NCBI RefSeq assembly: GCF_005484805.1 | Contig: NZ_CP039432.1 | Coordinates: forward strand, 2,728,001 to 2,792,000 | DNA: 64,000 nt | Origin: Rhodococcus sp. SGAir0479 | GTDB lineage: Bacteria > Actinomycetota > Actinomycetes > Mycobacteriales > Mycobacteriaceae | Direction: 5' to 3' | Shown here: piece after piece, positions 9,317 through 21,527 of the stretch | Layout of the letters: the number at the start of each line of letters is the position of its first letter | Numbering within the stretch: the first letter of the stretch is position 1 | Position numbers and translations under genes: made by a program | Notes under the pieces: generated by a model | Database searches by the model: none | What the model was told of the DNA's origin: nothing | What the model saw: only the letters and a program-made list of their open reading frames with translations

Positions 9317-9964
9317 CTACACCAGCAGCTTCGCCGCGGTCGCGGCGACGACCTCGTCGACACTGACCCCGGGGGCGGTCTCGACCAGCCGCAGACCCTC
9401 GTCGGTGACGTCCAGGACCGCCATGTCGGTGATGATCCGCTGCACACAGCCCTTGCCGGTGAGCGGCAGGGTGCACTCGTCGAGGATCTTGGACTCGCCC
9501 TTCTTCGAGACGTGCTCCATCATCACGATGACGCGCTTGGCGCCGTGGACGAGGTCCATCGCGCCGCCCATGCCCTTGACCATGTGGCCGGGGATCATCC
9601 AGTTGGCGAGATCACCGCCGGCACTGACCTGCATCGCGCCGAGCACGGCGACGTCGACCTGGCCGCCCCGGATCATGCCGAACGACTGCGACGAGTCGAA
9701 GAACGACGCGCCGGGCAGCGTGGTGATGGTCTCCTTGCCGGCATTGATCAGCTCGGGATCGAGCTCGTCCTCGGTGGGGTACGGCCCGACGCCCAGCACC
9801 CCGTTCTCCGAGTGCAACACGACGGTGACACCCTCGGGAATGTAGTTGGGCACCAGGGTCGGCATGCCGATACCGAGGTTGACGTACTGCCCGTCGGACA
9901 GCTCCTGCGCGACGCGCGCGGCCATCTGCTCGCGGGTCAGCTTCTGGGTGACTACCTCGGTCAT
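9317..9964 (-). CDS. pcaJ: 3-oxoadipate CoA-transferase, beta subunit
   Basis: Together with PcaI it moves CoA from succinyl-CoA to beta-ketoadipate, the penultimate step of the protocatechuate pathway. The 215-residue protein has the family I CoA-transferase subunit B pattern: [13 protein letters not shown], then the catalytic glutamate motif SENGVLG with Glu53, and a [10 protein letters not shown] stretch. The ATG at 9964 overlaps the pcaI stop by four bases (ATGA), which fixes the start despite a longer open frame upstream. It shares a transcript with pcaI and is divergent from pcaHGBLRF. Confidence 0.95.
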
Positions 9965-10710
9965 GCTCGCACCGTTCGCTTCTCGATTCCGACAGTGACC
10001 TTGCCCACCGGCACGACGCGCTGCACGTGGATGCCCGGCGTGTGGATCTGGTCCGGGTCCAGCTCGCCCGGCTCGACGAGGTGCTCGACCTGCGCGATGG
10101 TGATGCGGCCCGACGCGGCGGCGGGCGGGTTGAAGTTGCGGGCGCTGCGGCGGAAGACGAGGTTGCCGTGGCGATCGCCCTTCCACGCGTGCACCAGCGC
10201 GAAGTCGGCGACGATGCCGCGTTCCATGACGTACGTCGTGCCGTCGAACACGCGGGTCTCCTTGACCGGGCTGGCGACGGCGACGCCGCCCGAGCCGTCG
10301 TAGCGGCGCGGCAGCCCGCCCTCGGCGACCTGCGTGCCGACGCCCGCCGGGGTGAAGAACGCGGGAATGCCCGCACCGCCGGCGCGCAGCCGCTCGGCGA
10401 GCGTGCCCTGCGGCGTCAGCTCCACCTCGAGCTCGCCGGACAGGTACTGGCGCGCGAACTCCTTGTTGTCCCCGACGTACGAGCTGATCGTGCGGCGGAT
10501 GCGGTGCTGCTCGAGCAGCACGCCCAACCCGAAGCCGTCCGTGCCGCAGTTGTTGCTCACGGTTTCGAGGTCCGTCGCACCCTGTTCCAGGAGCGCATCG
10601 ATGAGGATCTCGGGCACCCCGACCAGGCCGAATCCGCCAACCGCGATGGTCGCGCCGTCCGGGATGTCGGCGACGGCCTCGGCCGCTGTGGCGATGACTT
10701 TGTCCATCAT
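9961..10710 (-). CDS. pcaI: 3-oxoadipate CoA-transferase, alpha subunit
   Basis: This is the alpha subunit of the beta-ketoadipate:succinyl-CoA transferase. The 249-residue protein begins [17 protein letters not shown] and carries the glycine-rich CoA-binding [10 protein letters not shown] near residue 20 and the [10 protein letters not shown] and [13 protein letters not shown] segments of family I subunit A. Tandem ATG codons at 10710 and 10707 and another at 10722 are possible starts, and none has a strong Shine-Dalgarno. I chose 10710. A tandem pair of candidate IclR sites lies 23-56 bp upstream. Confidence 0.94.
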
Positions 10711-10732
10711 GGCGGCCAGCATACGTCGATCC

Positions 10733-10766
10733 GTACGTAATGTGAACTCTCGTCCGCCCTGCGAAC
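10733..10766. promoter_or_regulatory. Candidate PcaR operator pair on the pcaI side
   Basis: Two 15-bp sites, GTACGTAATGTGAAC at 10733-10747 and GTCCGCCCTGCGAAC at 10752-10766, match GTTCGTATTGCGAAC at 12 and 11 of 15 positions. Their centres are 19 bp apart, as in the two other pairs in this block. They lie just upstream of pcaI. Confidence 0.6.
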
Positions 10767-10783
10767 ACACCCCGTGGGTGCCG

Positions 10784-10812
10784 TTGATCGCGCCCCGGAC
10801 ACGCACTACCTT
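10784..10812 (+). promoter_or_regulatory. Candidate pcaH promoter
   Basis: TTGATC at 10784-10789 and TACCTT at 10807-10812 are separated by 17 bp, a reasonable -35/-10 pair for the housekeeping sigma factor. The adjacent operator pair begins at 10813, directly after the -10, so a bound regulator would cover the transcription start. This is inferred from sequence only. Confidence 0.4.
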
Positions 10813-10846
10813 GTTCGTATAGCGTCAGATCGTCCGCATAACGAAC
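10813..10846. promoter_or_regulatory. Candidate PcaR operator pair on the pcaH side
   Basis: GTTCGTATAGCGTCA (10813-10827) and GTCCGCATAACGAAC (10832-10846) each match GTTCGTATTGCGAAC at 11 of 15 positions, with centres 19 bp apart. The outer halves also form one large inverted repeat (TGTTCGTATA...ATAACGAACA). The pair ends three bases before the first possible pcaH start codon. Confidence 0.65.
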
Positions 10847-10849
10847 ATT

Positions 10850-11629
10850 GTGTCGGGAATGCTCTCGGATCCCCGCTCGACCCTGCCCCCGATCCCGCCC
10901 GAGGTCCCCATGCTTCATCTACCCCCGCAGTACCGGCCGATCGGCACCGGCGTGAACGCGCCGCCGGACTTCGCCGACTACAAGACCACCCGCCTGCGCA
11001 GCCCGCGGCAGCCGTTGAAGCTGCTGCCGCAGCGACTCGGTGAGCTCACCGGGCCCGTCTTCGGCGAGGACCGCATCCGTCCGGGCGACGCCGACCTGAC
11101 GATGGCGAACGGCGGCGAGGCCCAGGGCCAGCGCATCGTCGTGCACGGCCGCGTGCTCGACTCCAACGGCAAGCCCGTCCCGAACACGCTGCTCGAGGTG
11201 TGGCAGGCGAACGCCGGCGGCCGCTACCGCCACACCGGCGACAACTGGCCGGCCCCGCTGGACCCGCACTTCGACGGCGTGGGCCGCTGCGTCACCGACG
11301 CCGACGGCCACTACACGTTCACGACCATCAAGCCGGGGGCGTACCCGTGGCGCAACCACGACAACGCGTGGCGGCCGTCGCACATCCACTTCTCGCTGTT
11401 CGGCACCGCGTTCACGCAGCGCCTGGTGACGCAGATGTACTTCCCCGACGATCCGCTGTTCTTCCAGGACCCGATCTACAACGCGGTGCCCGCCGACGCC
11501 CGGCACCGGATGATCAGCGTCTTCGACTACGACGCGACCGTGGCCGACTGGGCCCTGGGCTTCCGTTTCGACATCGTCCTGCGTGGACGCGACGCCACTC
11601 CGTTCGAGGACGAGGACCACGATGACTGA
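10850..11629 (+). CDS. pcaH: Protocatechuate 3,4-dioxygenase, beta subunit
   Basis: The iron-bearing subunit of the intradiol dioxygenase that opens protocatechuate to 3-carboxy-cis,cis-muconate. Counting from the GTG at 10850 (259 residues), the four Fe(III) ligands are visible as Tyr126 (GGRYRH), Tyr165 (GAYPWRN), His178 and His180 (RPSHIHF). Possible starts are GTG 10850, ATG 10859 and ATG 10910. The last has GAGG upstream and gives a 239-residue protein, close to Pseudomonas PcaH, so the first 20 residues may not be translated. The last eight bases overlap pcaG. It is the first gene of the pcaHGBLRF operon. Confidence 0.93.
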
Positions 11630-12266
11630 CACCACCCCGGCCGACACCGCTCCCACCTACCCCGTCACGCCCGGCGACTTCACCACCGCCGCGTTCGGCG
11701 TCACCCCGTCGCAGACGGTGGGCCCGTACTGGCACATCGGGCTGCCGTGGGAGGACGGCCCCGACGCCGCACCCGCAGGCGCTCCGGACCGGATCACGCT
11801 GCGCATCACCGTGATCGACGGGGATCGGGCGCCCGTCGCCGACGCGATGGTCGAGACGTGGCAGGCCGACGCCGCAGGCCGCTTCGCGCACCCCGACGAT
11901 CCGCGCGGCGTCAGCGAGCCGGTCCCGGCGGGCTTCCGCGGCTTCGGTCGCGCCGGCGCCGACGCGACCGGCACCGCAGCGATCCACACGGTCAAGCCGG
12001 GAGCGCTGCCCGCCGAGAACGACACCACCGAGGCCCCGCACGTGAACGTCGGGATCTTCGCGCGCGGCATGCTCGAGCGCCTGTACACGCGGCTGTACTT
12101 CCCGGAGGACACCGCCGCGCACGCCACCGATCCGGTGCTGACGTCGCTGCCCGAGTCCCAGCGCGCCAAGCTGATCGCCACGAGGACCGACGACGGATAC
12201 AGCCTCACCGTCTATGTTCAGGACAGCGATCCCGCCGGCGTCGAGACGCCGTTCTTCGAGTTGTGA
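11622..12266 (+). CDS. pcaG: Protocatechuate 3,4-dioxygenase, alpha subunit
   Basis: The non-metal-binding partner of PcaH, needed to form the alpha-beta protomer of protocatechuate 3,4-dioxygenase. The 214-residue protein has the alpha-subunit hallmarks TPSQTVGPYWHIGLPW, VETWQADAAGRFAHP and the C-terminal HVNVGIFARGMLERLYTRLYF. A spaced stretch around residues 90-115 lacks the beta subunit's tyrosine and histidine ligands, as expected. The ATG at 11622 lies inside the end of pcaH (8-base overlap), which implies coupled and stoichiometric synthesis. Confidence 0.95.
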   Translation: MTDTTPADTAPTYPVTPGDFTTAAFGVTPSQTVGPYWHIGLPWEDGPDAAPAGAPDRITLRITVIDGDRAPVADAMVETWQADAAGRFAHPDDPRGVSEPVPAGFRGFGRAGADATGTAAIHTVKPGALPAENDTTEAPHVNVGIFARGMLERLYTRLYFPEDTAAHATDPVLTSLPESQRAKLIATRTDDGYSLTVYVQDSDPAGVETPFFEL

Positions 12267-12279
12267 TCAGGAGTCTCTC

Positions 12280-13629
12280 GTGACGCACACCCGCGGTGCC
12301 CTGTTCGATCCGGTGTTCGGCGCGTCCGAGGTCGCGGAGGAGCTCTCGGATCGGGCGTGGGTGCTCGCACTGCTCGAGGTGGAGGCCGCGCTCACCCGCG
12401 CGGCCGCCACCGTCGGTCTCGCCGACGCCGCGCACGCAGCGACGGTGACCGCGGTCGCCGAGCAGCTGGCCGCGCCCGGCGCCGTCGACATCGCCGACCT
12501 CGGCCGCCGGTCCGCCGCCGGCGGCAATCCGGTGATCCCGCTGGTGAAGACCCTGCGCGCCGCGGTGGCCGAGCACGGGGTGCCGGCGGCGGCGGTGCAC
12601 GTCGGCGCCACCAGCCAGGACATCCTGGATTCGGCGCTGATGTTGCTCTCGCGCAGGGCCGGTCACCGGGTGCTCGCGGATTTGCGGGCCGCCGCGAACG
12701 CGGCGGCCGAACTCGCGCGGCTGCACCGCACCACCCCGGTGGTGGCGCGCACCCTGGGTCAGCAGGCGCTGCCGACCACGTTCGGCGCGCTCGCGGCGTC
12801 GTGGTGCACCGGGCTCGACGACGCCGCCGACCAGCTGGCCCGGGCGCTGTCCGCGCTGCCGGTCCAGTACGGCGGAGCGGCAGGCACTCTCGCGGCGGTC
12901 CACCCGCACGGGCCCGCCCTGGCCGACGCGCTGGCGGACCAGCTGGGACTGGCCCGGCAGGTGGTGCCGTGGCACACCGTCCGCACCCCGGTCGCGTCGC
13001 TGGCCGCCGCGCTCGGCGTGGCCGCGGGCGCCGTGTCGAAGCCCGCCACGGACGTGACACTGATGGCGTCGACGGAATTCGGCGAGGTCGCCGAGGATGC
13101 CCCGGGCGGCTCGTCGGCCATGCCGCACAAGCAGAATCCGGTGGCCGCGATCACCGCGCGGGCGGCGGCACGGCGGGTGCCGGGCCTGGTCTCGACGGTG
13201 CTGTCGGCGATGGATCACGAGTTCGCCCGCGCCGCCGGCGGCTGGCACGCCGAGTGGGAGACGGTCACCGACCTGTTGCGCCTCGGCGGCGGCGCCGCGC
13301 GACGCCTCGCCGCGAGCCTCGGTGGGCTGCGCGTGCACCCCGACGCGATGGCCCGCAACCTGGACATCACCGGCGGACTGATCCTGGCCGAGCGCGTCAC
13401 CGGCGCGCTCGCCGCGCACACCGACGCGGCACGCGACATCGTCACCGCCGCAGCGGCTGCCGGGATTCCCCTCGATCAGGCTCCGGAGATCACCGCCCAC
13501 CTGACGGCGGCCGAGCTGCGCGACCTTCTCGATCCCTCGCACTACCTCGGCCACGCCGCCGACCTCGTCGATCGTGCCCTTGCTTCCCGGGCGGCACGGC
13601 CCGCCCGAACCATCGGAGGACATCCATGA
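12280..13629 (+). CDS. pcaB: 3-carboxy-cis,cis-muconate cycloisomerase
   Basis: This enzyme lactonises 3-carboxy-cis,cis-muconate to gamma-carboxymuconolactone, the second step after ring cleavage. The 449-residue protein belongs to the fumarase/aspartase superfamily. It has the signature GGSSAMPHKQNP at 276-287 with the mobile catalytic-loop serine, and the upstream HVGATSQDI at about 107-115. The GTG at 12280 is preceded by AGGAG at 12269-12273, and an open frame beginning at 12214 inside pcaG is rejected. The stop overlaps the pcaL start (ATGA). Confidence 0.95.
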   Translation: MTHTRGALFDPVFGASEVAEELSDRAWVLALLEVEAALTRAAATVGLADAAHAATVTAVAEQLAAPGAVDIADLGRRSAAGGNPVIPLVKTLRAAVAEHGVPAAAVHVGATSQDILDSALMLLSRRAGHRVLADLRAAANAAAELARLHRTTPVVARTLGQQALPTTFGALAASWCTGLDDAADQLARALSALPVQYGGAAGTLAAVHPHGPALADALADQLGLARQVVPWHTVRTPVASLAAALGVAAGAVSKPATDVTLMASTEFGEVAEDAPGGSSAMPHKQNPVAAITARAAARRVPGLVSTVLSAMDHEFARAAGGWHAEWETVTDLLRLGGGAARRLAASLGGLRVHPDAMARNLDITGGLILAERVTGALAAHTDAARDIVTAAAAAGIPLDQAPEITAHLTAAELRDLLDPSHYLGHAADLVDRALASRAARPARTIGGHP

Positions 13630-14801
13630 CAGTGGACCTGCACTACGCGACATCCGGCGATCCCGCCGCGCCGCCGGTCCTGCTGCTCGGCTCGCTGGGC
13701 TCGGACCTGCACATGTGGGATCCGCAGATCAGCGCGCTCGGCGCGCGGGCCCACGTGATCGCGGTCGATCACCGCGGGCACGGCGGCTCCCCCGCCCCCG
13801 CGGGCCCGTACACCGTCGCCGACCTGGGCGGCGACGTGATCGCGCTGCTCGACCGGCTGGAACTGGACTCGGTGCACCTCGTCGGGCTCTCCCTCGGCGG
13901 CGCCGTCGGGCAGTGGCTGGCCGCGCACCACCCGCTGCGGGTGCGGACCCTGACCGTGATGTGCACGTCGGCGCAGTTCGCGCCCGCGCAACCGTGGCTC
14001 GATCGCGCCGCGGCCGTGCGCGGCGAGGGCATCGCGTCGATCGCCGACTCCGTCGTCGGACGTTGGTTCACTCCCGAACTGGCGCAACGCGATCCGAAGC
14101 TCGTGGCCCGGCACGTCGCGATGGTGCGCGGCACCTCCGACGAGGGCTACGCGGCATGCTGCGAGGCCCTGGCCGCGTGGGACGGGCGCGCCGATCTGGC
14201 CCGGATCGTCGCCCCCACGCTGGTGATCGCCGCCGAGCAGGACGGGCCGACGCCACCGTCGGCACTGCAGGCGATCGCCGACGGCATCGCCGGTGCCGAG
14301 ATGCACGTCCTCTCCCCCGGCGCGCATCTGGCCAACGTCGAGCAGGCCGGGGCGATCACCCGGCTGATCGAACGCCACATCGCCGCGGCCACGCCGGTGG
14401 GCGTCTCCCGCCGCGCCGTCCACGACGTGGGAATGACCGTGCGCCGCTCGGTGCTCGGCGACGCGCACGTCGACCGGGCCGTGGCGGGGGCCACCGCGTT
14501 CACCGAACCGTTCCAGGACTTCATCACCCGCACCGCGTGGGGCGACATCTGGGCCCGCGACGGCCTGGACCATCCCACCCGGCGGCTGCTGACGCTGGCG
14601 ATCCTCACCGCTGTCGGCAACGAGCACGAGCTCGACATGCACATCCGGGCGGCGCTGCGCGCGGGCATGGACCCGCAACTGCTCGTGGAAGTATTCCTCC
14701 ATACCGCGGTCTACGCGGGTGTGCCGAACAGCAACCGGGCCTTCGCGCTCGGGAAGCAGGCCCTCGCCGACCTGGCGGGCGCCACCGAGGGGAGTACCTG
14801 A
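13626..14801 (+). CDS. pcaL: Fused 3-oxoadipate enol-lactonase / 4-carboxymuconolactone decarboxylase
   Basis: A bifunctional PcaD-PcaC fusion that decarboxylates gamma-carboxymuconolactone and then hydrolyses the enol-lactone to beta-ketoadipate. Residues 1-~255 are an alpha/beta-hydrolase with nucleophile elbow GLSLGG (Ser89) and the VDHRGHGGS strand. Residues ~262-391 are a carboxymuconolactone decarboxylase domain (GNEHELDMHIRAAL, then HTAVYAGVPNSNRAF). Such fusions named PcaL are known in Rhodococcus opacus and Streptomyces. The start overlaps pcaB by four bases, and pcaR follows two bases after the stop. Confidence 0.95.
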   Translation: MTVDLHYATSGDPAAPPVLLLGSLGSDLHMWDPQISALGARAHVIAVDHRGHGGSPAPAGPYTVADLGGDVIALLDRLELDSVHLVGLSLGGAVGQWLAAHHPLRVRTLTVMCTSAQFAPAQPWLDRAAAVRGEGIASIADSVVGRWFTPELAQRDPKLVARHVAMVRGTSDEGYAACCEALAAWDGRADLARIVAPTLVIAAEQDGPTPPSALQAIADGIAGAEMHVLSPGAHLANVEQAGAITRLIERHIAAATPVGVSRRAVHDVGMTVRRSVLGDAHVDRAVAGATAFTEPFQDFITRTAWGDIWARDGLDHPTRRLLTLAILTAVGNEHELDMHIRAALRAGMDPQLLVEVFLHTAVYAGVPNSNRAFALGKQALADLAGATEGST

Positions 14802-14803
14802 CA

Positions 14804-15649
14804 GTGACGAAATCGAGCGGGAGCAACCCGAACGGAACCGAACCGACCGGGGCGTCGACCGACTACGTGCAGTCGCTGGCGCGCGGGCTGTCCGTCATCC
14901 GGGCGTTCGACGCGGAGAACCCGCGCCGCACGCTCAGCGACGTCGCCCGTGCGACCGACCTCACCCGCGCGACGGCCCGCCGGTTCCTGCTCACGCTCGC
15001 CGAACTCGGCTACGTCCGCACCGACGGCTCGGCGTTCTGGCTCACCCCGCGCGTGCTCGAGCTCGGGTACAGCTACCTGTCGAGCCTGTCGCTGCCCGAT
15101 ATCGCCGAACCGCACCTCGAGGCCCTGTCCGACCGGGTCCACGAGTCGACGTCGGTCTCGATCCTCGACGGCGGCGACGTCGTGTACGTCGCCCGAGTGC
15201 CGGTGCGCCGGATCATGACCGTCTCCATCACGATCGGCACCCGCTTCCCCGCGTTCGCCACGTCCATGGGGCGCGTGCTGCTGGCGGGTCTGCCGCCCGA
15301 GCAGCTCGACGCGTACCTGGCCACGGTGGAGCTGACACCGTTGACCGGACGCACCCTCGCGACGCCGGACGCGCTCCGCGCCGAGCTCGACAAGATCCGC
15401 GCTCAGGGTTTCTGCGTCGTCGATCAGGAACTCGAAGAAGGCCTGCGTTCGCTGGCCGCACCCATCGCGGACCGGTCGGGTGCCGTCGTCGCCGCCGTCA
15501 ACATCTCGACGCAGGCGGCGCGGTACACCACCGAGGCGGTGTACGAGACCCTCGTGCCCGCCGCCGTCGCGACCGCGGCGGCGATCTCGGCCGACCTCGC
15601 CCGCACCCAGTCCCAATCGTCTTCGCACCAAGGAAGAAGTCATGCCTGA
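14804..15649 (+). CDS. pcaR: IclR-family regulator of the beta-ketoadipate genes
   Basis: A 281-residue IclR-type regulator. It has an N-terminal winged helix-turn-helix (residues ~18-80; TLSDVARATDLTRATARRFLLTL) and a C-terminal ligand-binding domain of the PcaR/PobR/PcaU kind (YVARVPVRRIMTVSITIGTRFPA; FCVVDQELEEGLRSLAAPI). It lies inside the pca operon between pcaL and pcaF, the arrangement described for rhodococcal pcaHGBLRF. Its own expression therefore depends on the promoter it probably controls. GTG at 14804 with GGGGAG upstream; the end overlaps pcaF by eight bases. The six tandem 15-mers near pcaI, pcaH and the transporter gene are its likely targets. Confidence 0.9.
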   Translation: MTKSSGSNPNGTEPTGASTDYVQSLARGLSVIRAFDAENPRRTLSDVARATDLTRATARRFLLTLAELGYVRTDGSAFWLTPRVLELGYSYLSSLSLPDIAEPHLEALSDRVHESTSVSILDGGDVVYVARVPVRRIMTVSITIGTRFPAFATSMGRVLLAGLPPEQLDAYLATVELTPLTGRTLATPDALRAELDKIRAQGFCVVDQELEEGLRSLAAPIADRSGAVVAAVNISTQAARYTTEAVYETLVPAAVATAAAISADLARTQSQSSSHQGRSHA

Positions 15650-16853
15650 CGCAGTCATCTGCGAACCCCTCCGTACCCCGGTCGGCCGCTTCGGCGGCGT
15701 CTTCCGGGACCTCGCGCCCGAGGAGCTGGCGGCCACCGTCATCACCGAACTGGTCTCCCGCACCGGGATTTCCGGCGCCGACGTCGACGACGTGATCCTC
15801 GGCCAGGGATCTCCCAACGGCGAGGCCCCCGCCATCGGACGCGTCGCCGCGCTCGACGCCGGTCTGGGCGTGGACGTGCCAGGCATGCAGATCGACCGGC
15901 GCTGCGGTTCCGGTCTGCAGGCGGTCATCCAGGCCGTGATGCAGGTTCAGTCCGGCGGCAGCGACCTCGTCCTCGCGGGCGGCGTCGAGTCGATGAGCCA
16001 GGCCGAGTTCTACGCCACCGGAATGCGTTACGGCGTGCGTGGTGAGTCCGTCGCCCTCAGCGACCGGCTCGCGCGGGCCCGCGTCACCGCCGGCGGCCGC
16101 AACTACCCCGTTCCCGGCGGCATGATCGAGACGGCCGAGAACCTACGCGCCGAGTTCTCCATCAGTCGCGCCGATCAGGACGCCCTCGCGGTGCAGTCCC
16201 ACCAGCGTGCCGTCGCGGCCCAGCACAGCGGCGTCTTCGCGCAGGAGATCGTGCCGGTGACGGTGCCGCAGCGCAAGGGCGATCCGCTGGTGGTCGACAC
16301 CGACGAGCACCCCCGCGCCGACACCAGCGTCGAAACCCTCGCCAAGCTCCGCCCGATCCGCGGCAAGATCGATCCCGACGCCACCGTCACCGCCGGCAAC
16401 GCCAGCGGCCAGAACGACGGCGCCGCCCTGGCGATCGTCACCACGCCGGAGAAGGCGAAGGCCCTCGGGCTGCGGCCGCTCGCCCGGCTCGCCAGTTGGG
16501 CACTCGCCGGTGTCCCCCCGCGCACGATGGGCATCGGCCCGGTGCCGTCCACCGAGAAGGCTTTGGCCCGACTGGGTCTCACGCTCGCCGACATGGATGT
16601 CATCGAACTCAACGAGGCGTTCGCCGCGCAGACCCTCGCCGTGACCCGCTCGTGGGGCCTCGAACCCGACGACGCGCGCCTCAACCCGAACGGCTCGGGC
16701 ATCTCGCTCGGCCACCCGGTGGGCGCGACCGGTGCCCGGATCCTCGCGACGCTGCTGCGCGAGATGGACCGCCGCGAGGCCCGCTGGGGCCTCGAGACGA
16801 TGTGCATCGGCGGCGGCCAGGGCCTGGCCGCGGTGTTCGAGCGCATCGCCTGA
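15642..16853 (+). CDS. pcaF: Beta-ketoadipyl-CoA thiolase
   Basis: This thiolase cleaves beta-ketoadipyl-CoA with CoA to succinyl-CoA and acetyl-CoA, the last pathway step. The 403-residue protein has the acyl-accepting Cys88 in RRCGSGLQA, the NEAFAAQ stretch, the catalytic His358 in GHPVGATGAR and the second cysteine Cys388 in TMCIGGGQG. It is the last gene of pcaHGBLRF. The ATG at 15642 lies within the end of pcaR, and the gene is followed at once by a perfect 18-bp palindromic terminator. Another catabolic acetyl-CoA acetyltransferase role is possible in principle, but the operon context decides. Confidence 0.94.
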   Translation: MPDAVICEPLRTPVGRFGGVFRDLAPEELAATVITELVSRTGISGADVDDVILGQGSPNGEAPAIGRVAALDAGLGVDVPGMQIDRRCGSGLQAVIQAVMQVQSGGSDLVLAGGVESMSQAEFYATGMRYGVRGESVALSDRLARARVTAGGRNYPVPGGMIETAENLRAEFSISRADQDALAVQSHQRAVAAQHSGVFAQEIVPVTVPQRKGDPLVVDTDEHPRADTSVETLAKLRPIRGKIDPDATVTAGNASGQNDGAALAIVTTPEKAKALGLRPLARLASWALAGVPPRTMGIGPVPSTEKALARLGLTLADMDVIELNEAFAAQTLAVTRSWGLEPDDARLNPNGSGISLGHPVGATGARILATLLREMDRREARWGLETMCIGGGQGLAAVFERIA

Positions 16854-16862
16854 TCCCCGACA

Positions 16863-16898
16863 CCACAGGGCCGGTCCTCGCGAGGACCGGCCCTGTGG
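16863..16898. terminator. Perfect 36-bp palindromic terminator after pcaF
   Basis: Two 18-bp arms (CCACAGGGCCGGTCCTCG and its exact complement) meet at the centre, nine bases past the pcaF stop and ten before the end of the converging reductase-like gene. The symmetry makes it bidirectional. Confidence 0.85.
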
Positions 16899-16907
16899 GT
16901 TCCGCGG

Positions 16908-17825
16908 TCAGCGAGCGGTGGCCGCCTTGACGATCTCGTACATCTCGGCGATCGCCCGTGCGCAGTCGTTCTGGGTGTAGCCCAGCAGCGCGGTCTCCTC
17001 GGGATCGGTCTCGTACGAGATGACGTTGCCGCGGCCCTGGACGATGAAGCTGTCCGGCAGCAGCGGATGCTCCTCGTCGCGCTCCTCGATGGTGCGGTTG
17101 CCGCCGGCCGCGTCGACCAGCAGCTGGAAGTACTCGGTGAACGTGAGGTTCTGGTCGCCGATGAGGTACGCCTTGCCGGGCGCCGCGTGCTGCAGGGCAC
17201 CCCAGATCGCCTCGGCGAGGGACTGCGCGGACATGTAGTTCGTGCCGCCGGCGGGGGCGAAGTCGGGGATCTGCGGTTCGTTGCCGGCGGCCCACGAGAA
17301 CAGCCGGCGGTACCGCTTGGCGGACACCCCGCTGATGGCACCGAGGATCGACGGCGGGTTCAGCGTGGACACCGCGAAGGTGTCGTCCGCCAGCGCACGC
17401 GCGCCCTCGTCTGCCGCCTTGCGCGCCGCGACGTACGGCATCGTCTCCGCGTACTCCGGGCGGAGGTGGTGGTAGTAGCTGCCCACCTGGACGAAGCGGC
17501 CCACGCCGGCCTCCTTGGCGAGTGCGGCGAACCGCGGCACCCCGCCGGACTGCGTCTTCTCCCAGAACTCGGCCTCGTCGACACCCCGGCCCATGTGCCG
17601 GATGTCCTGGCCCGCGGCGAACACGATGCCTTCGTACGGCGCCAGATCGTCGGCGGTGAACGTCTGCTCCGTGTAGTCGCCCAGCAGCACCGGGAAGTCC
17701 TTCACCGGCGAGTCGTCGGCCAGCGGGTTGCGGGCGGCGACAGTGACGTCGTTACCCTGTCCGCGCAGGTGGAGGGCCGTGTGGGCGCCGATCATGCCGG
17801 TGCCGCCGACGATCAGGATCTTCAT
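16908..17825 (-). CDS. NAD(P)-binding epimerase/reductase-like protein (atypical extended SDR)
   Basis: A 305-residue Rossmann-fold protein in the middle of the aromatic block. The N-terminal GGTGMIG (residues 7-13) is an extended-SDR nucleotide site. The expected YxxxK catalytic pair is not present. The nearest is Tyr131 with Lys136 (YVAARK), one residue too far, so it may be an atypical SDR or have lost SDR chemistry. A stretch FSWAAGNEPQIPDFAPAGGTNYMS resembles substrate-binding regions of epimerases. AGAGG precedes the ATG at 17825. It converges with pcaF and is transcribed in the same direction as pobA. No step of the known pathway needs it, and its substrate is unknown. Confidence 0.75.
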   Translation of the reverse strand: MKILIVGGTGMIGAHTALHLRGQGNDVTVAARNPLADDSPVKDFPVLLGDYTEQTFTADDLAPYEGIVFAAGQDIRHMGRGVDEAEFWEKTQSGGVPRFAALAKEAGVGRFVQVGSYYHHLRPEYAETMPYVAARKAADEGARALADDTFAVSTLNPPSILGAISGVSAKRYRRLFSWAAGNEPQIPDFAPAGGTNYMSAQSLAEAIWGALQHAAPGKAYLIGDQNLTFTEYFQLLVDAAGGNRTIEERDEEHPLLPDSFIVQGRGNVISYETDPEETALLGYTQNDCARAIAEMYEIVKAATAR

Positions 17826-17973
17826 GGAATGCCTCTTCTGTAGGTGGAGCACTTACTGCGCTTTCCGAACCTACGGACGCCGCGCCCGCCGGCACGCGGG
17901 GATTCTCGGCGACCGGGAGAACCGCGGCGGAGAGTCTCCGTCACGCGACGACACCGCTCCCCTGCCGACATAC

Positions 17974-18013
17974 GAGTTCGACCGGCCCACCCCGACGTGG
18001 ACCGGTCGAACTC
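17974..18013 (-). terminator. Stem-loop terminator after pobA
   Basis: A perfect 12-bp inverted repeat (GAGTTCGACCGG and CCGGTCGAACTC) with a 16-base loop lies 16 bases beyond the pobA stop. The 203-bp gap it occupies otherwise holds only the upstream region of the reductase-like gene. Confidence 0.75.
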
Positions 18014-18028
18014 ACCACCGACGTCGGG

Positions 18029-19301
<1,273 letters not shown>

Positions 19302-19332
19302 AAAGGTTTGCGTCCACCGTGGGAGACGTCGG

Positions 19333-20088
19333 TCACGCCAGGCCGCGCGAGATGCCGCGGACGGCGGCGCGCAACGCCGGAATCAGCGGCGCCGGATCGG
19401 CCTCCGCGCCGACGACCACCGAGATCGAGGCGACCACCTCGCCCGTCCTGCGCAGCAACGGCGCGGCCACCGCAAGGGTGCCGATGTTGAGGTGCTCGCG
19501 GCACACGACGAAGCCGCTGCGCCGGATGTCGTCGAGCACCTGGCGGAGCCGGTGCTCGGAGGTGATGGTGTGGGGCGTGAACCGCTCCAGCCCGGCGGCG
19601 AGGACCTCGTCGAGCAGCCTCTCCCCGCCGTGGGCCAACAACACCAGCCCACCGCTCGACGCGTGCAGCGGAAGCCGGCCGCCCGCGCGGCCGACCACGG
19701 CGACGGCGCCGCGCGCGGACAGTCGTTCCAGGTAGAGCGCCTCGAGCCCCTCCCTCACGATCAACTGGACGTTCTCGTGGGTGGCCTCGTAGAGGTCCTC
19801 GAGGTACGGCATCGCGACCTGCCGCAGGCCGTGTGCGCGCGGCGCCAGCGCCCCCAGCTCCCACAGCCGGACGCCGATCTCGTAGCGACCGTCGTCGGCG
19901 CGTTCGAGCGCACCGTTGGCCACCAGCTGCGCACACAGGCGGTGGACCGTGGGCAACGGCAGACCGGTCCGCCGACTGAGGTCGGACTGCGTCATCCGGG
20001 GCCGCGCCGCCGAGAAACACCCGAGCACGGTGAAGGCCCGGCCGAGCATGCTGCGGGCCGCGTCGGCTGCCTCGTTCCCGTCGTCCAC
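19333..20088 (-). CDS. IclR-family regulator, probable activator of pobA
   Basis: A 251-residue IclR protein: N-terminal winged helix (residues ~16-75, MTQSDLSRRTGLPLPTVHRLCAQL) and a C-terminal effector domain (ALYLERLSARGAVAVVGRAGGRLPLHASSGG; CREHLNIGTLAVAAPL). It stands between pobA (downstream, same strand) and the divergent AAHS transporter gene, the usual place for a PobR-like regulator that senses 4-hydroxybenzoate. The GTG at 20088 is taken as start because upstream codons in the open frame lack family character. The Shine-Dalgarno is weak, so the start is uncertain. It is clearly distinct from PcaR. Confidence 0.85.
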   Translation of the reverse strand: MDDGNEAADAARSMLGRAFTVLGCFSAARPRMTQSDLSRRTGLPLPTVHRLCAQLVANGALERADDGRYEIGVRLWELGALAPRAHGLRQVAMPYLEDLYEATHENVQLIVREGLEALYLERLSARGAVAVVGRAGGRLPLHASSGGLVLLAHGGERLLDEVLAAGLERFTPHTITSEHRLRQVLDDIRRSGFVVCREHLNIGTLAVAAPLLRRTGEVVASISVVVGAEADPAPLIPALRAAVRGISRGLA

Positions 20089-20132
20089 CCCTCGATTGTC
20101 CCCGGCGCGCGAGGCCCAACCGACCACGACAA

Positions 20133-20142
20133 ACCAGCTGGT
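20133..20142. promoter_or_regulatory. Small palindrome between the IclR gene and the transporter gene
   Basis: ACCAGCTGGT is a perfect 10-bp palindrome 45 bp upstream of the IclR-type gene and next to the transporter -35 box. It could be an autoregulatory site. Evidence is weak. Confidence 0.25.
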
Positions 20143-20149
20143 CTGCAGT

Positions 20150-20179
20150 TTGACATTCGCTTGTGACCCAGCCAACAAT
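20150..20179 (+). promoter_or_regulatory. Candidate promoter of the AAHS transporter gene
   Basis: A consensus -35 box TTGACA (20150-20155) is followed after 18 bp by AACAAT (20174-20179). The tandem operator pair starts seven bases later. The order -35, -10, operator is the same as at pcaH. Confidence 0.45.
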
Positions 20180-20185
20180 GACCGG

Positions 20186-20219
20186 GTTCTCATTTTGAAC
20201 GGTGGTTCGTATTGCGAAC
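20186..20219. promoter_or_regulatory. Candidate PcaR operator pair before the transporter gene
   Basis: GTTCTCATTTTGAAC (20186-20200, 11 of 15) and the perfect inverted repeat GTTCG-TATTG-CGAAC (20205-20219) have centres 19 bp apart, as in the pcaI and pcaH pairs. The second is the best copy in the block and serves here as the reference sequence. Confidence 0.7.
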
Positions 20220-20240: not shown

Positions 20241-21527
20241 ATGAGCACCATCGAACGACCCGTGAGCCGCGGCACGTCCGCGCGCTGGGTGGCACCCCTC
20301 TGTTGGATCGCGGTCCTACTCGACGGTTTCGACATGGTCGTGCTCGGCACGGTCATTCCGTCCCTGCGCGAGTACGGCGACTGGAACCTGAGCACCAGCA
20401 CCATCACGACGATCACGACGTTCGGTCTGGTCGGCATGACGATCGGCGCGCTCACCATCGGCACCCTCACCGACGTGGTCGGGCGGCGGCGGGCACTGAT
20501 CTTCGCGGTCACCGCCTTCTCGATCCTCACGCTGCTCTGCGCGGTGGCGCCCAACCCGTTCCTGTTCGGCCTCTTCCGGTTCCTGTCCGGGATCGGACTC
20601 GGTGGCGCCCTGCCCACCGCCTTGGCGCTGGTCAACGAGTTCTCCAAGAAGCAGGGCGGCGGCTCCGCCTCCACGATGCTGATGACCGGCTACCACGTCG
20701 GAGCCGTCGCGACCGCGGCCCTGGCACTGGTGCTCATCGATCCGTTCGGCTGGCACTCGATGTTCGTCGTCGGCGCGCTGCCGGCCCTGGTGCTCGTCCC
20801 GCTGATGATCCGCTACCTGCCGGAATCGCCGTCCTATCTGCTCTCGCGCGGCCGTCGCGACGAGGCCGAGCGGATCGCCGCGCAGTACGGTCTGATCCTC
20901 GAGCCGGAGGTGGCCACCACGGACGGCGTCGCCCCTGCACCCGCCCAGCCCGCGCGCCAGCTGTTCGCGCCGAAGTTCCTGCGCAACAGCATCGCCATCT
21001 GGGTCGCCTCGTTCATGGGCCTGCTGCTGGTGTACGGCCTCAACACGTGGCTGCCGACGATCATGCGGGAGGCCGGCTACGAGCTGGGCGCCGCGCTGAC
21101 GCTGCTGCTGGTGCTCAACGCGGGAGCCGTCGTGGGTCTGCTGATCGCCGGCGGTGTCGCCGACCGGATCGGGCCGCGGACCGCGTGCATCGTGTGGTTC
21201 GCCGGTGCGGCCCTGTTCCTGGCCCTGCTCAGCGTCAAGATCGCGGGCGGCATCTACGTCATGGTCTTCCTGGCCGGCTGCTTCGTGTTCAGCGCGCAGG
21301 TGCTCGTGTACGCCTTCACGAGCGCCAGCCACCCGGCCAACATCCGCGCCACCGCCCTGGGCTGGTCCGCCGGCGTCGGCCGCGTGGGCGCCATCTGCGG
21401 CCCGCTGCTCGGCGGCCTGCTGCTCGACGCCGGCTACGCGGTGCCGTGGGGCTTCTACGCCTTCGCCCTGGTCGGACTCATCGGCCTGGTCGCCATCTCG
21501 GCGAGCCGGGCGGTCAAGGCCGCCTGA
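20241..21527 (+). CDS. pcaK: Aromatic acid:H+ symporter, AAHS family (PcaK-like)
   Basis: A 428-residue major-facilitator protein that probably imports 4-hydroxybenzoate or protocatechuate. Helix 1 carries the AAHS motif DGFDMVVLGTVIPSL, with the acidic residues needed for aromatic transport. The loop after helix 2 is GTLTDVVGRRRA (the MFS D-R signature), and 12 hydrophobic segments can be traced, with a central hydrophilic loop near 215-250 and a second GGVADRIGPR loop. The ATG at 20241 has GGAG upstream. The PcaR-like operator pair in its promoter ties it to the pca regulon. The exact substrate is inferred; benzoate or vanillate carriers look similar. Confidence 0.88.
   Translation: MSTIERPVSRGTSARWVAPLCWIAVLLDGFDMVVLGTVIPSLREYGDWNLSTSTITTITTFGLVGMTIGALTIGTLTDVVGRRRALIFAVTAFSILTLLCAVAPNPFLFGLFRFLSGIGLGGALPTALALVNEFSKKQGGGSASTMLMTGYHVGAVATAALALVLIDPFGWHSMFVVGALPALVLVPLMIRYLPESPSYLLSRGRRDEAERIAAQYGLILEPEVATTDGVAPAPAQPARQLFAPKFLRNSIAIWVASFMGLLLVYGLNTWLPTIMREAGYELGAALTLLLVLNAGAVVGLLIAGGVADRIGPRTACIVWFAGAALFLALLSVKIAGGIYVMVFLAGCFVFSAQVLVYAFTSASHPANIRATALGWSAGVGRVGAICGPLLGGLLLDAGYAVPWGFYAFALVGLIGLVAISASRAVKAA

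Follow-up and report, generated by a model that had tools for sequence, protein, structure and literature searches.

Which protein reads the six short palindromes that stand before the pcaI, pcaH and pcaK genes of Rhodococcus sp. SGAir0479? The window, i.e., the whole stretch of 64,000 nucleotides that was analysed (positions 2,728,001 to 2,792,000 of contig NZ_CP039432.1; coordinates below are counted from its first letter), carries genes of protocatechuate catabolism. An earlier note on this DNA had described six 15-base-pair (bp) sites in three pairs, one pair before each of the three genes, and had named PcaR as the natural candidate for their binder. From sequence comparison, it is highly likely that the six sites form three tandem operators for PcaR, an IclR-family regulator that is encoded within the pcaHGBLRF operon. 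A broader proposal is about equally likely to hold or to fail: that one rigid, 19-bp PcaR operator is shared by rhodococci, Nocardia, Dietzia, Pseudonocardia and Microbacterium, that it is used at two promoter positions, and that a paralogue of PcaR has an orthogonal, single palindrome at pobA.

The sites are variants of the palindrome GTTCG-N5-CGAAC, which is present at the target promoters and is exact at 20205 only. They were scored in two ways: by identity over 15 bases to GTTCGTATTGCGAAC, and by the ten arm bases only (GTTCG/CGAAC). The pcaI pair consists of a proximal site at 10733..10747 (GTACGTAATGTGAAC; 12/15 identity, 8/10 arm bases), which is kept before pcaI, and a distal site at 10752..10766 (GTCCGCCCTGCGAAC; 11/15 and 9/10). 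Before pcaH, the distal site is at 10813..10827 (GTTCGTATAGCGTCA; 11/15 and 7/10), with a degenerate right arm, and the proximal site is at 10832..10846 (GTCCGCATAACGAAC; 11/15 and 9/10). The pcaK pair comprises a distal site at 20186..20200 (GTTCTCATTTTGAAC; 11/15 and 8/10) and, at 20205..20219, the proximal site, which is GTTCGTATTGCGAAC itself, the reference (15/15 and 10/10). When the window was re-read and re-scored, all six sites were found where the earlier note had placed them and with the identities that it had given. The grouping into pairs was also confirmed, as the start-to-start distance, which equals the centre-to-centre distance, is 19 bp in all three. Each pair thus falls within the definition of tandem IclR sites, which is two palindromes with centres 18–22 bp apart. 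The assignment of one pair each to pcaI, pcaH and pcaK stands, with the pcaK label resting on context, and the word "regulon" is fair for three promoters.

The weakest arm is the right arm of site 10813, which reads CGTCA. This sequence is present in 7 of 12 genus loci and its first three bases, CGT, in all 12, so that the departure from the palindrome is itself conserved. The half-site seems to be weak by design and not decayed, and the departure suggests either a deliberately weak half-site or an overlap with the transcription start. A further candidate at 10786–10800 (GATCGCGCCCCGGAC), 34 bp from the site at 10752, was dropped: it is unconserved in the genus alignment except where it overlaps a TTGAT[TC] box.

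Could the pairs be chance, that is, short degenerate palindromes that were found by looking for them? At a loose cut, where each site has at least 7/10 arm bases, the window has six pairs at spacing 19, and about three such pairs are expected in a random 64-kb window (mean 2.96 and maximum 9 in 200 first-order random windows). Because the observed count lies within the random range, the window by itself is not decisive against chance. When the arm sum of the two sites was required to be at least 16, only the three reported pairs were found at spacing 19; across spacings 15–44, there are two further pairs, at 34 and 36, each of which shares a site with the reported pairs. In the 4.97-Mb genome, the pattern GTNC-N7-G-N7-GTNCG-N5-CGAAC, which is post hoc as it was derived from the sites, occurs at six places: the three reported pairs and three G+C-rich places without a palindromic first site. 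The reversed control gave none. There is no convincing fourth pair in the genome by this exact pattern; weaker pairs were not searched for. Single sites are common, with 84 forward and 78 reverse genome matches to GTNCG-N5-CGAAC and 9 and 6 in the reversed control, and rarity belongs to the pair.

The independent part of the evidence comes from other genera, in which loci from related species do not count as independent observations. A strict pattern, GTNC-N7-G-N7-GTNCRYWTNRCGAAC, was made from the genus sites and occurs at 37 places in 17 of 81 related genomes, with no match in the reversed control. By coordinates, all 37 places precede pcaI, pcaK or the gene that opens the divergent operon, or lie between pcaR and pcaF. 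Within the genus, 12 of the 14 genomes have pairs; the exceptions (G009 and G012) also lack a close PcaR, their best matches having E values of 5.3e-24 and 6.9e-26, and have no pcaI above 71% identity. A larger set of 397 genomes from the order, partly overlapping with the 81, gave 38 places in 37 genomes and one match in the reversed control. Loci were obtained for 30 of these places, and 29 adjoin a pca or pob gene or a gene for a CoA-transferase subunit, where the CoA-transferase domain was assigned by Pfam for L168 and by similarity to L168 for 14 others; the remaining locus, L162, adjoins none of the genes tested. The eight places without a locus include pcaK of the present genome, and at three of them (G216, G147 and G099) the near-identical, G+C-rich letters are, at a guess, conserved coding sequence. 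As a separate observation, loci L165–L179, which belong to one other family, have the same pair before a different CoA-transferase gene that the PcaI query did not match, some with pobA opposite.

Further support for a fixed spacing came from 80 named loci (950,268 bp) with a relative of PcaR at 55–90% identity. With an arm sum of at least 16 and each site at least 7, spacing 19 accounts for 75 pairs, and none of the 32 other spacings between 12 and 44 for more than four. Reversed sequences gave one pair at spacing 19 and first-order random sequence 1.6 on average (ten trials). Removal of the six closest loci left 61 pairs at spacing 19, with other spacings at four or fewer. The positions are also uneven: in 61 of the 75 pairs, a start of one of nine query genes follows within 350 bp, compared with 23 of the 53 pairs at all other spacings together. 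Of those 61, 37 are nearest to pcaI, and 34 of the 37 are at 27–44 bp. When one site was allowed to fall to 6, at least one pair was present in 60 of the 80 loci.

The same picture is seen promoter by promoter. PcaI was searched in the 81 genomes, 14 of them from the genus, and 30 loci were fetched (L011–L040). A pcaI at least 90% identical is present in 12 of the 14 genus genomes (L011–L021 and L023), and all 12 loci have the pcaI pair at spacing 19, 21–23 bp from the pcaI start (23 in ten of them), and a second pair approximately 80 bp beyond it. No pcaH was found in the fetched loci L021 and L023; in the named loci L193 and L194, whose pair letters are as in these two, the second pair faces pcaB instead. 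Outside the genus, a spacing-19 pair precedes pcaI in L022 and L025–L030; in L036, the only pair is weak and has a spacing of 22. No pair was found before pcaI at this cut in L024, L031–L035, L037, L038 and L040, nor in L039 (genus genome G012, 71% pcaI). For the best transporter matches, 30 loci were likewise fetched (L041–L070), and 14 of them (L041–L051, L054, L066 and L067) have a spacing-19 pair before the transporter, with a 10/10 proximal site in every case. The distal pcaK site reads GTTCT...TGAAC in the 11 genus loci aligned. Genus genomes G007, G009 and G012 have no close pcaK. In G036 and G040, pcaR itself has an adjacent pair; in the latter, which belongs to another genus, two 10/10 sites form a pair between pcaR and pcaF (L073, 1501–1534).

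Conservation thus settles the pairs as more than chance. The earlier note had held that constant spacing argued against chance; this is borne out by conservation across genera and not by the window alone. It had also said that its proposal would be refuted if pairs as good as these were frequent in unrelated coding DNA or if orthologous pca genes lacked the sites. The former is not the case, as all 37 strict matches are at pca genes, and the sites are conserved before the orthologous genes of relatives. With sequence, spacing and position kept over many genera, chance retains practically no probability and was rejected as an explanation.

If the pairs are regulatory, which IclR protein do they serve? 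At spacing 19, the pairs accompany PcaR across actinobacteria, and the six sites are very probably PcaR landing sites. PcaR (P0004) is encoded at 14804..15649 on the plus strand and is a member of TIGR02431, the PcaR/PcaU/PobR model, with 346.8 bits against a cut-off of 284.75. The nearest named PcaR loci found are those of Prescottella, at 89–90% identity, which makes this genus of rhodococci the probable source of the window. Relatives with solved structures are 2ia2 and 8eju in the PDB, the latter matching PcaR with an E of 1.3e-64. The choice of PcaR by the earlier note is well supported, but a rival IclR gene that is divergent from pcaK was overlooked. This second gene, P0003, is at 19333..20088 on the minus strand, is HbaR1/PobR-like, and its product is 34% identical to PcaR over 215 residues. 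P0003 is not a member of TIGR02431 (135.7 bits versus the cut-off of 284.75).

P0003, which probably responds to 4-hydroxybenzoate, could be the protein that binds the pcaK pair (20186–20219), leaving only the pcaI and pcaH pairs to PcaR. It is the nearest regulator gene, it and pcaK form a divergent pair in 11 of the 14 genus genomes, and the distal pcaK arms are GTTCT/TGAAC, unlike the GTNCG of the other promoters, in all 11 aligned genus loci. The same GTTCT/TGAAC arms, however, occur in the pair beside pcaR in G036. In addition, the pcaK pair is present without a P0003-like gene in the fetched loci of G035, G052 and G079, where PcaR is 64–70% identical, although the G035 genome does have P0003 at a distance of only about 2.4 kb. 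The pair also stands without a P0003-like gene in L183–L188, where approximately 1.5 kb on each side was seen and the presence of PcaR was not checked. Conversely, there is no pair where P0003 and pobA stand without pcaK (G007, L110). There is none in G071 (L065), which has a 46% P0003-like gene beside pcaK and no close PcaR, and none at the pcaK of G063 and G075, both of which are without a close PcaR.

P0003 also appears to have a DNA word of its own. Between the second IclR gene and pobA lies a separate, perfect palindrome at 19285..19301 (CTTTCACTCAGTGAAAG), which is a candidate P0003 site. Its pattern, CTTTCACTNAGTGAAAG, is present before pobA in all 11 aligned genus loci, two of them with one change; in the genome it has one place, at pobA, and it is absent from pcaK. 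Both surveys together yielded 21 places with the exact pattern: 16 are beside a P0003-like gene, one is beside pobA alone and four are beside neither. In five of the 16, the gene is 40–46% like P0003 and is divergent from pcaH. CTTTCACTNAGTGAAAG is thus the putative P0003 operator. Because the candidate palindrome of P0003 is another one, and because the pair persists at several pcaK genes in the absence of P0003, PcaR is judged the better candidate for the pcaK pair, and binding of this pair by P0003 is improbable. It is unlikely, too, that both proteins act at pcaK, with PcaR using the pair and P0003 an unrecognised sequence in the conserved, 150-bp intergenic region. This region does have other conserved blocks besides the pair (around TTGAC, TGTGA and ACAAT), but these can be explained as the pcaK promoter, and the P0003-type palindrome, whose exact pattern is confined to pobA in this genome, is not among them.

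The positions of the pairs relative to predicted promoters are of two kinds. At pcaI, on the minus strand, a predicted −10 box TATGCT (10718..10723) ends 7 bases before the start codon and is identical in the 12 genus loci with the pair; the predicted −35 box TTCACA (10741..10746; TGCACA in two genus loci) lies inside site 10733–10747, with a 17-bp spacer. The arrangement is TTCACA-N17-TATGCT-7 bases-ATG, and as the gap from TATGCT to the start codon is 6–7 across the 12 genus loci, the pcaI mRNA is predicted to be leaderless. At pcaH, on the plus strand, a predicted −35 box TTGATC (10784..10789) and a predicted −10 box TACCTT (10807..10812), which directly abuts the pcaH pair, belong to the arrangement TTGAT[TC]-N17-TANNNT found in 12 of 12 genus loci. 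At pcaK, also on the plus strand, the predicted −35 box TTGACA (20150..20155) and, after an 18-bp spacer, the predicted −10 box AACAAT (20174..20179) are in conserved blocks; the latter is a weak match and is six bases before the pcaK pair. The pcaI pair would therefore overlap or sit upstream of the polymerase contact, and the pcaH and pcaK pairs would cover the start, and it is plausible that all three positions fit repression. In L048 and L050, a stretch with CATTC and TGTGAC upstream of pcaK occurs twice in tandem, as if the promoter region had been duplicated.

These boxes raise the question of whether the conserved letters of the pairs are mainly promoter elements, as −35 and −10 boxes are also about 23 bp apart, and not sites for a regulator. 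A promoter-like TTCTCA-N17-TATTGC can be read across both pcaK sites, and the predicted pcaI −35 box is within the proximal site. The arms are, however, palindromic, the pair-to-box offsets differ between pcaI and pcaH, and the other conserved boxes (TTGACA, TTGAT[TC]-N17-TANNNT and TATGCT) are outside the pairs, all of which leaves this explanation very improbable.

Several observations weigh against assignment of the six sites to PcaR. Co-occurrence of PcaR and the pairs is not binding, the promoter boxes are pattern matches, and IclR-family genes are numerous in the genome (25 matches to PcaR with E no higher than 0.001, one of them PcaR). The pcaI pair of the present genome is not among the matches to the strict pattern. 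Six genomes with a PcaR at 58–91% identity (G007, G018, G034, G036, G039 and G073) have no pair in the 300 bp before their best transporter; these transporters are only 35–47% like pcaK and may not be pcaK. At the cut used, 20 of the 80 PcaR loci are without a pair. Nine of these, labelled Rhodococcus or Rhodococcoides, keep a weaker pair before pcaI with the same offset and spacing, and in the other eleven no pcaI start was found in the locus. Finally, as 14 of the 75 pairs at spacing 19 do not precede any query gene, some of the 75 are chance or serve other genes.

The genes around the sites are those of a protocatechuate pathway. On the minus strand are pcaJ (9317..9964; 3-oxoadipate CoA-transferase subunit B, TIGR02428) and pcaI (9961..10710; subunit A, TIGR02429). 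The plus-strand operon begins with pcaH (10910..11629; protocatechuate 3,4-dioxygenase beta, TIGR02422) and pcaG (11622..12266; the alpha subunit, TIGR02423), followed by pcaB (12280..13629; carboxymuconate cycloisomerase, TIGR02426) and pcaL (13626..14801; fused PcaDC, NF051488), the starts of the last two being inferred. All six pass the curated cut-offs. Genus loci with a pcaH keep the start at 10910, which is therefore most likely the pcaH start, and not 10859 or 10850. Downstream of pcaR, the pcaF position is occupied by a thiolase (15642..16853, plus strand), which is above the cut-offs of thiolase subfamily models and below that of the pcaF equivalog. The pcaK position has an AAHS-type MFS transporter (20241..21527, plus strand; TIGR00895, 308 bits, cut-off 418.55). 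As both score below the cut-offs of the models so named, the pcaF and pcaK labels, including the substrates, rest on context. On the minus strand, pobA (18029..19216; 4-hydroxybenzoate 3-monooxygenase) is above the cut-off of the subfamily model NF006091 and below that of the equivalog TIGR02360.

How might the switch work? In the proposed mechanism, one PcaR dimer would occupy each 15-bp imperfect palindrome, and the two dimers of a pair, 19 bp apart, would be neighbours on almost the same helical face; from this spacing, cooperative binding as a tetramer is presumed. Without inducer, PcaR would repress. At pcaI, its pair would occupy the predicted −35 box together with the adjoining upstream DNA; at pcaH and pcaK, the pair would begin just past the predicted −10 box and cover the transcription start. 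If so, the two promoter positions would grade repression. As pcaR is itself a gene of the operon that starts with pcaH, PcaR would limit its own supply by negative feedback. A pathway intermediate would then release PcaR, so that uptake (pcaK), ring cleavage (pcaHGBL) and CoA transfer (pcaIJ) would come on together. That pcaH and pcaI are repressed, and that there is a feedback loop, is taken by analogy from published work on Rhodococcus opacus; direct binding, the tetramer, the promoter boxes, the inducer and control of pcaK we infer. With separate palindromes, there would be no cross-talk between two regulators of one pathway.

In R. opacus, deletion of pcaR results in higher activity of PpcaH and PpcaI reporters on glucose, and HbaR1, an IclR protein next to pobA, is reported to activate 4-hydroxybenzoate genes (PMC9582017). 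Strain PD630 has, as is proposed here, a single pcaR inside the pca operon that represses pcaH and pcaI and an IclR activator beside pobA (PMC9582017). From gene order, P0003 would be the counterpart of HbaR1, and an activator fits a separate site at pobA. The words "operator", "palindrom", "inverted repeat" and "pcaK" are absent from the text of PMC9582017, whereas here operators, pcaK as a target and a separate pobA palindrome are proposed. No PcaR operator in Rhodococcus is described in the titles or abstract openings that were found, most subscription papers being outside the search.

The half-sites match those published for PcaR elsewhere (PMC8222616, PMC12455658). In Corynebacterium glutamicum, the PcaR motif is GTTCGC-N3-GCGAAC (PMC8222616 Table 1, citing Brinkrolf 2006), and the palindrome, the pathway and an IclR repressor are common to both systems; the motif in the table is a single site, whereas here there are three tandem pairs at 19 bp. 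There, pcaHG is under PcaO (PMC9582017), whereas here pcaH also has a pair. A PcaR regulon, with sites conserved between two corynebacteria, has also been described (PMC2653031). The operator of Pseudomonas putida PcaR, GTTCGATAATCGCAC (PMC12455658), shares the 15-bp length, has similar arms and is read by a homologous regulator. That protein both represses and activates, with beta-ketoadipate and succinate as the named effectors, and the part of the account available (PMC12455658) describes no tandem pair and does not have the word "tandem". Tandem IclR sites, 18–22 nt between centres, are described in 94 orthologous groups (PMC8222616). The architecture is the same as here, with no difference in kind, and the present sites resemble the group 1 IclR consensus given in that source.

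Tandem IclR sites 18–22 bp apart and this half-site are therefore already known (PMC8222616), and the locus is a clear, well-conserved example of a known switch. What is added here is the exact spacing across many actinobacteria, pcaK as a proposed target, the predicted positions at the promoters and, for the adjacent paralogue, a candidate operator distinct from that of PcaR. The uptake gene pcaK thus joins the proposed targets, and separate DNA words are proposed for two neighbouring regulators of the same pathway. Together, these give a testable operator rule for actinobacterial protocatechuate catabolism, one that states where PcaR would bind and which sets of genes would move together, and by which the regulon can be found in a new genome with few false matches. 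Actinobacteria are of interest for lignin upcycling.

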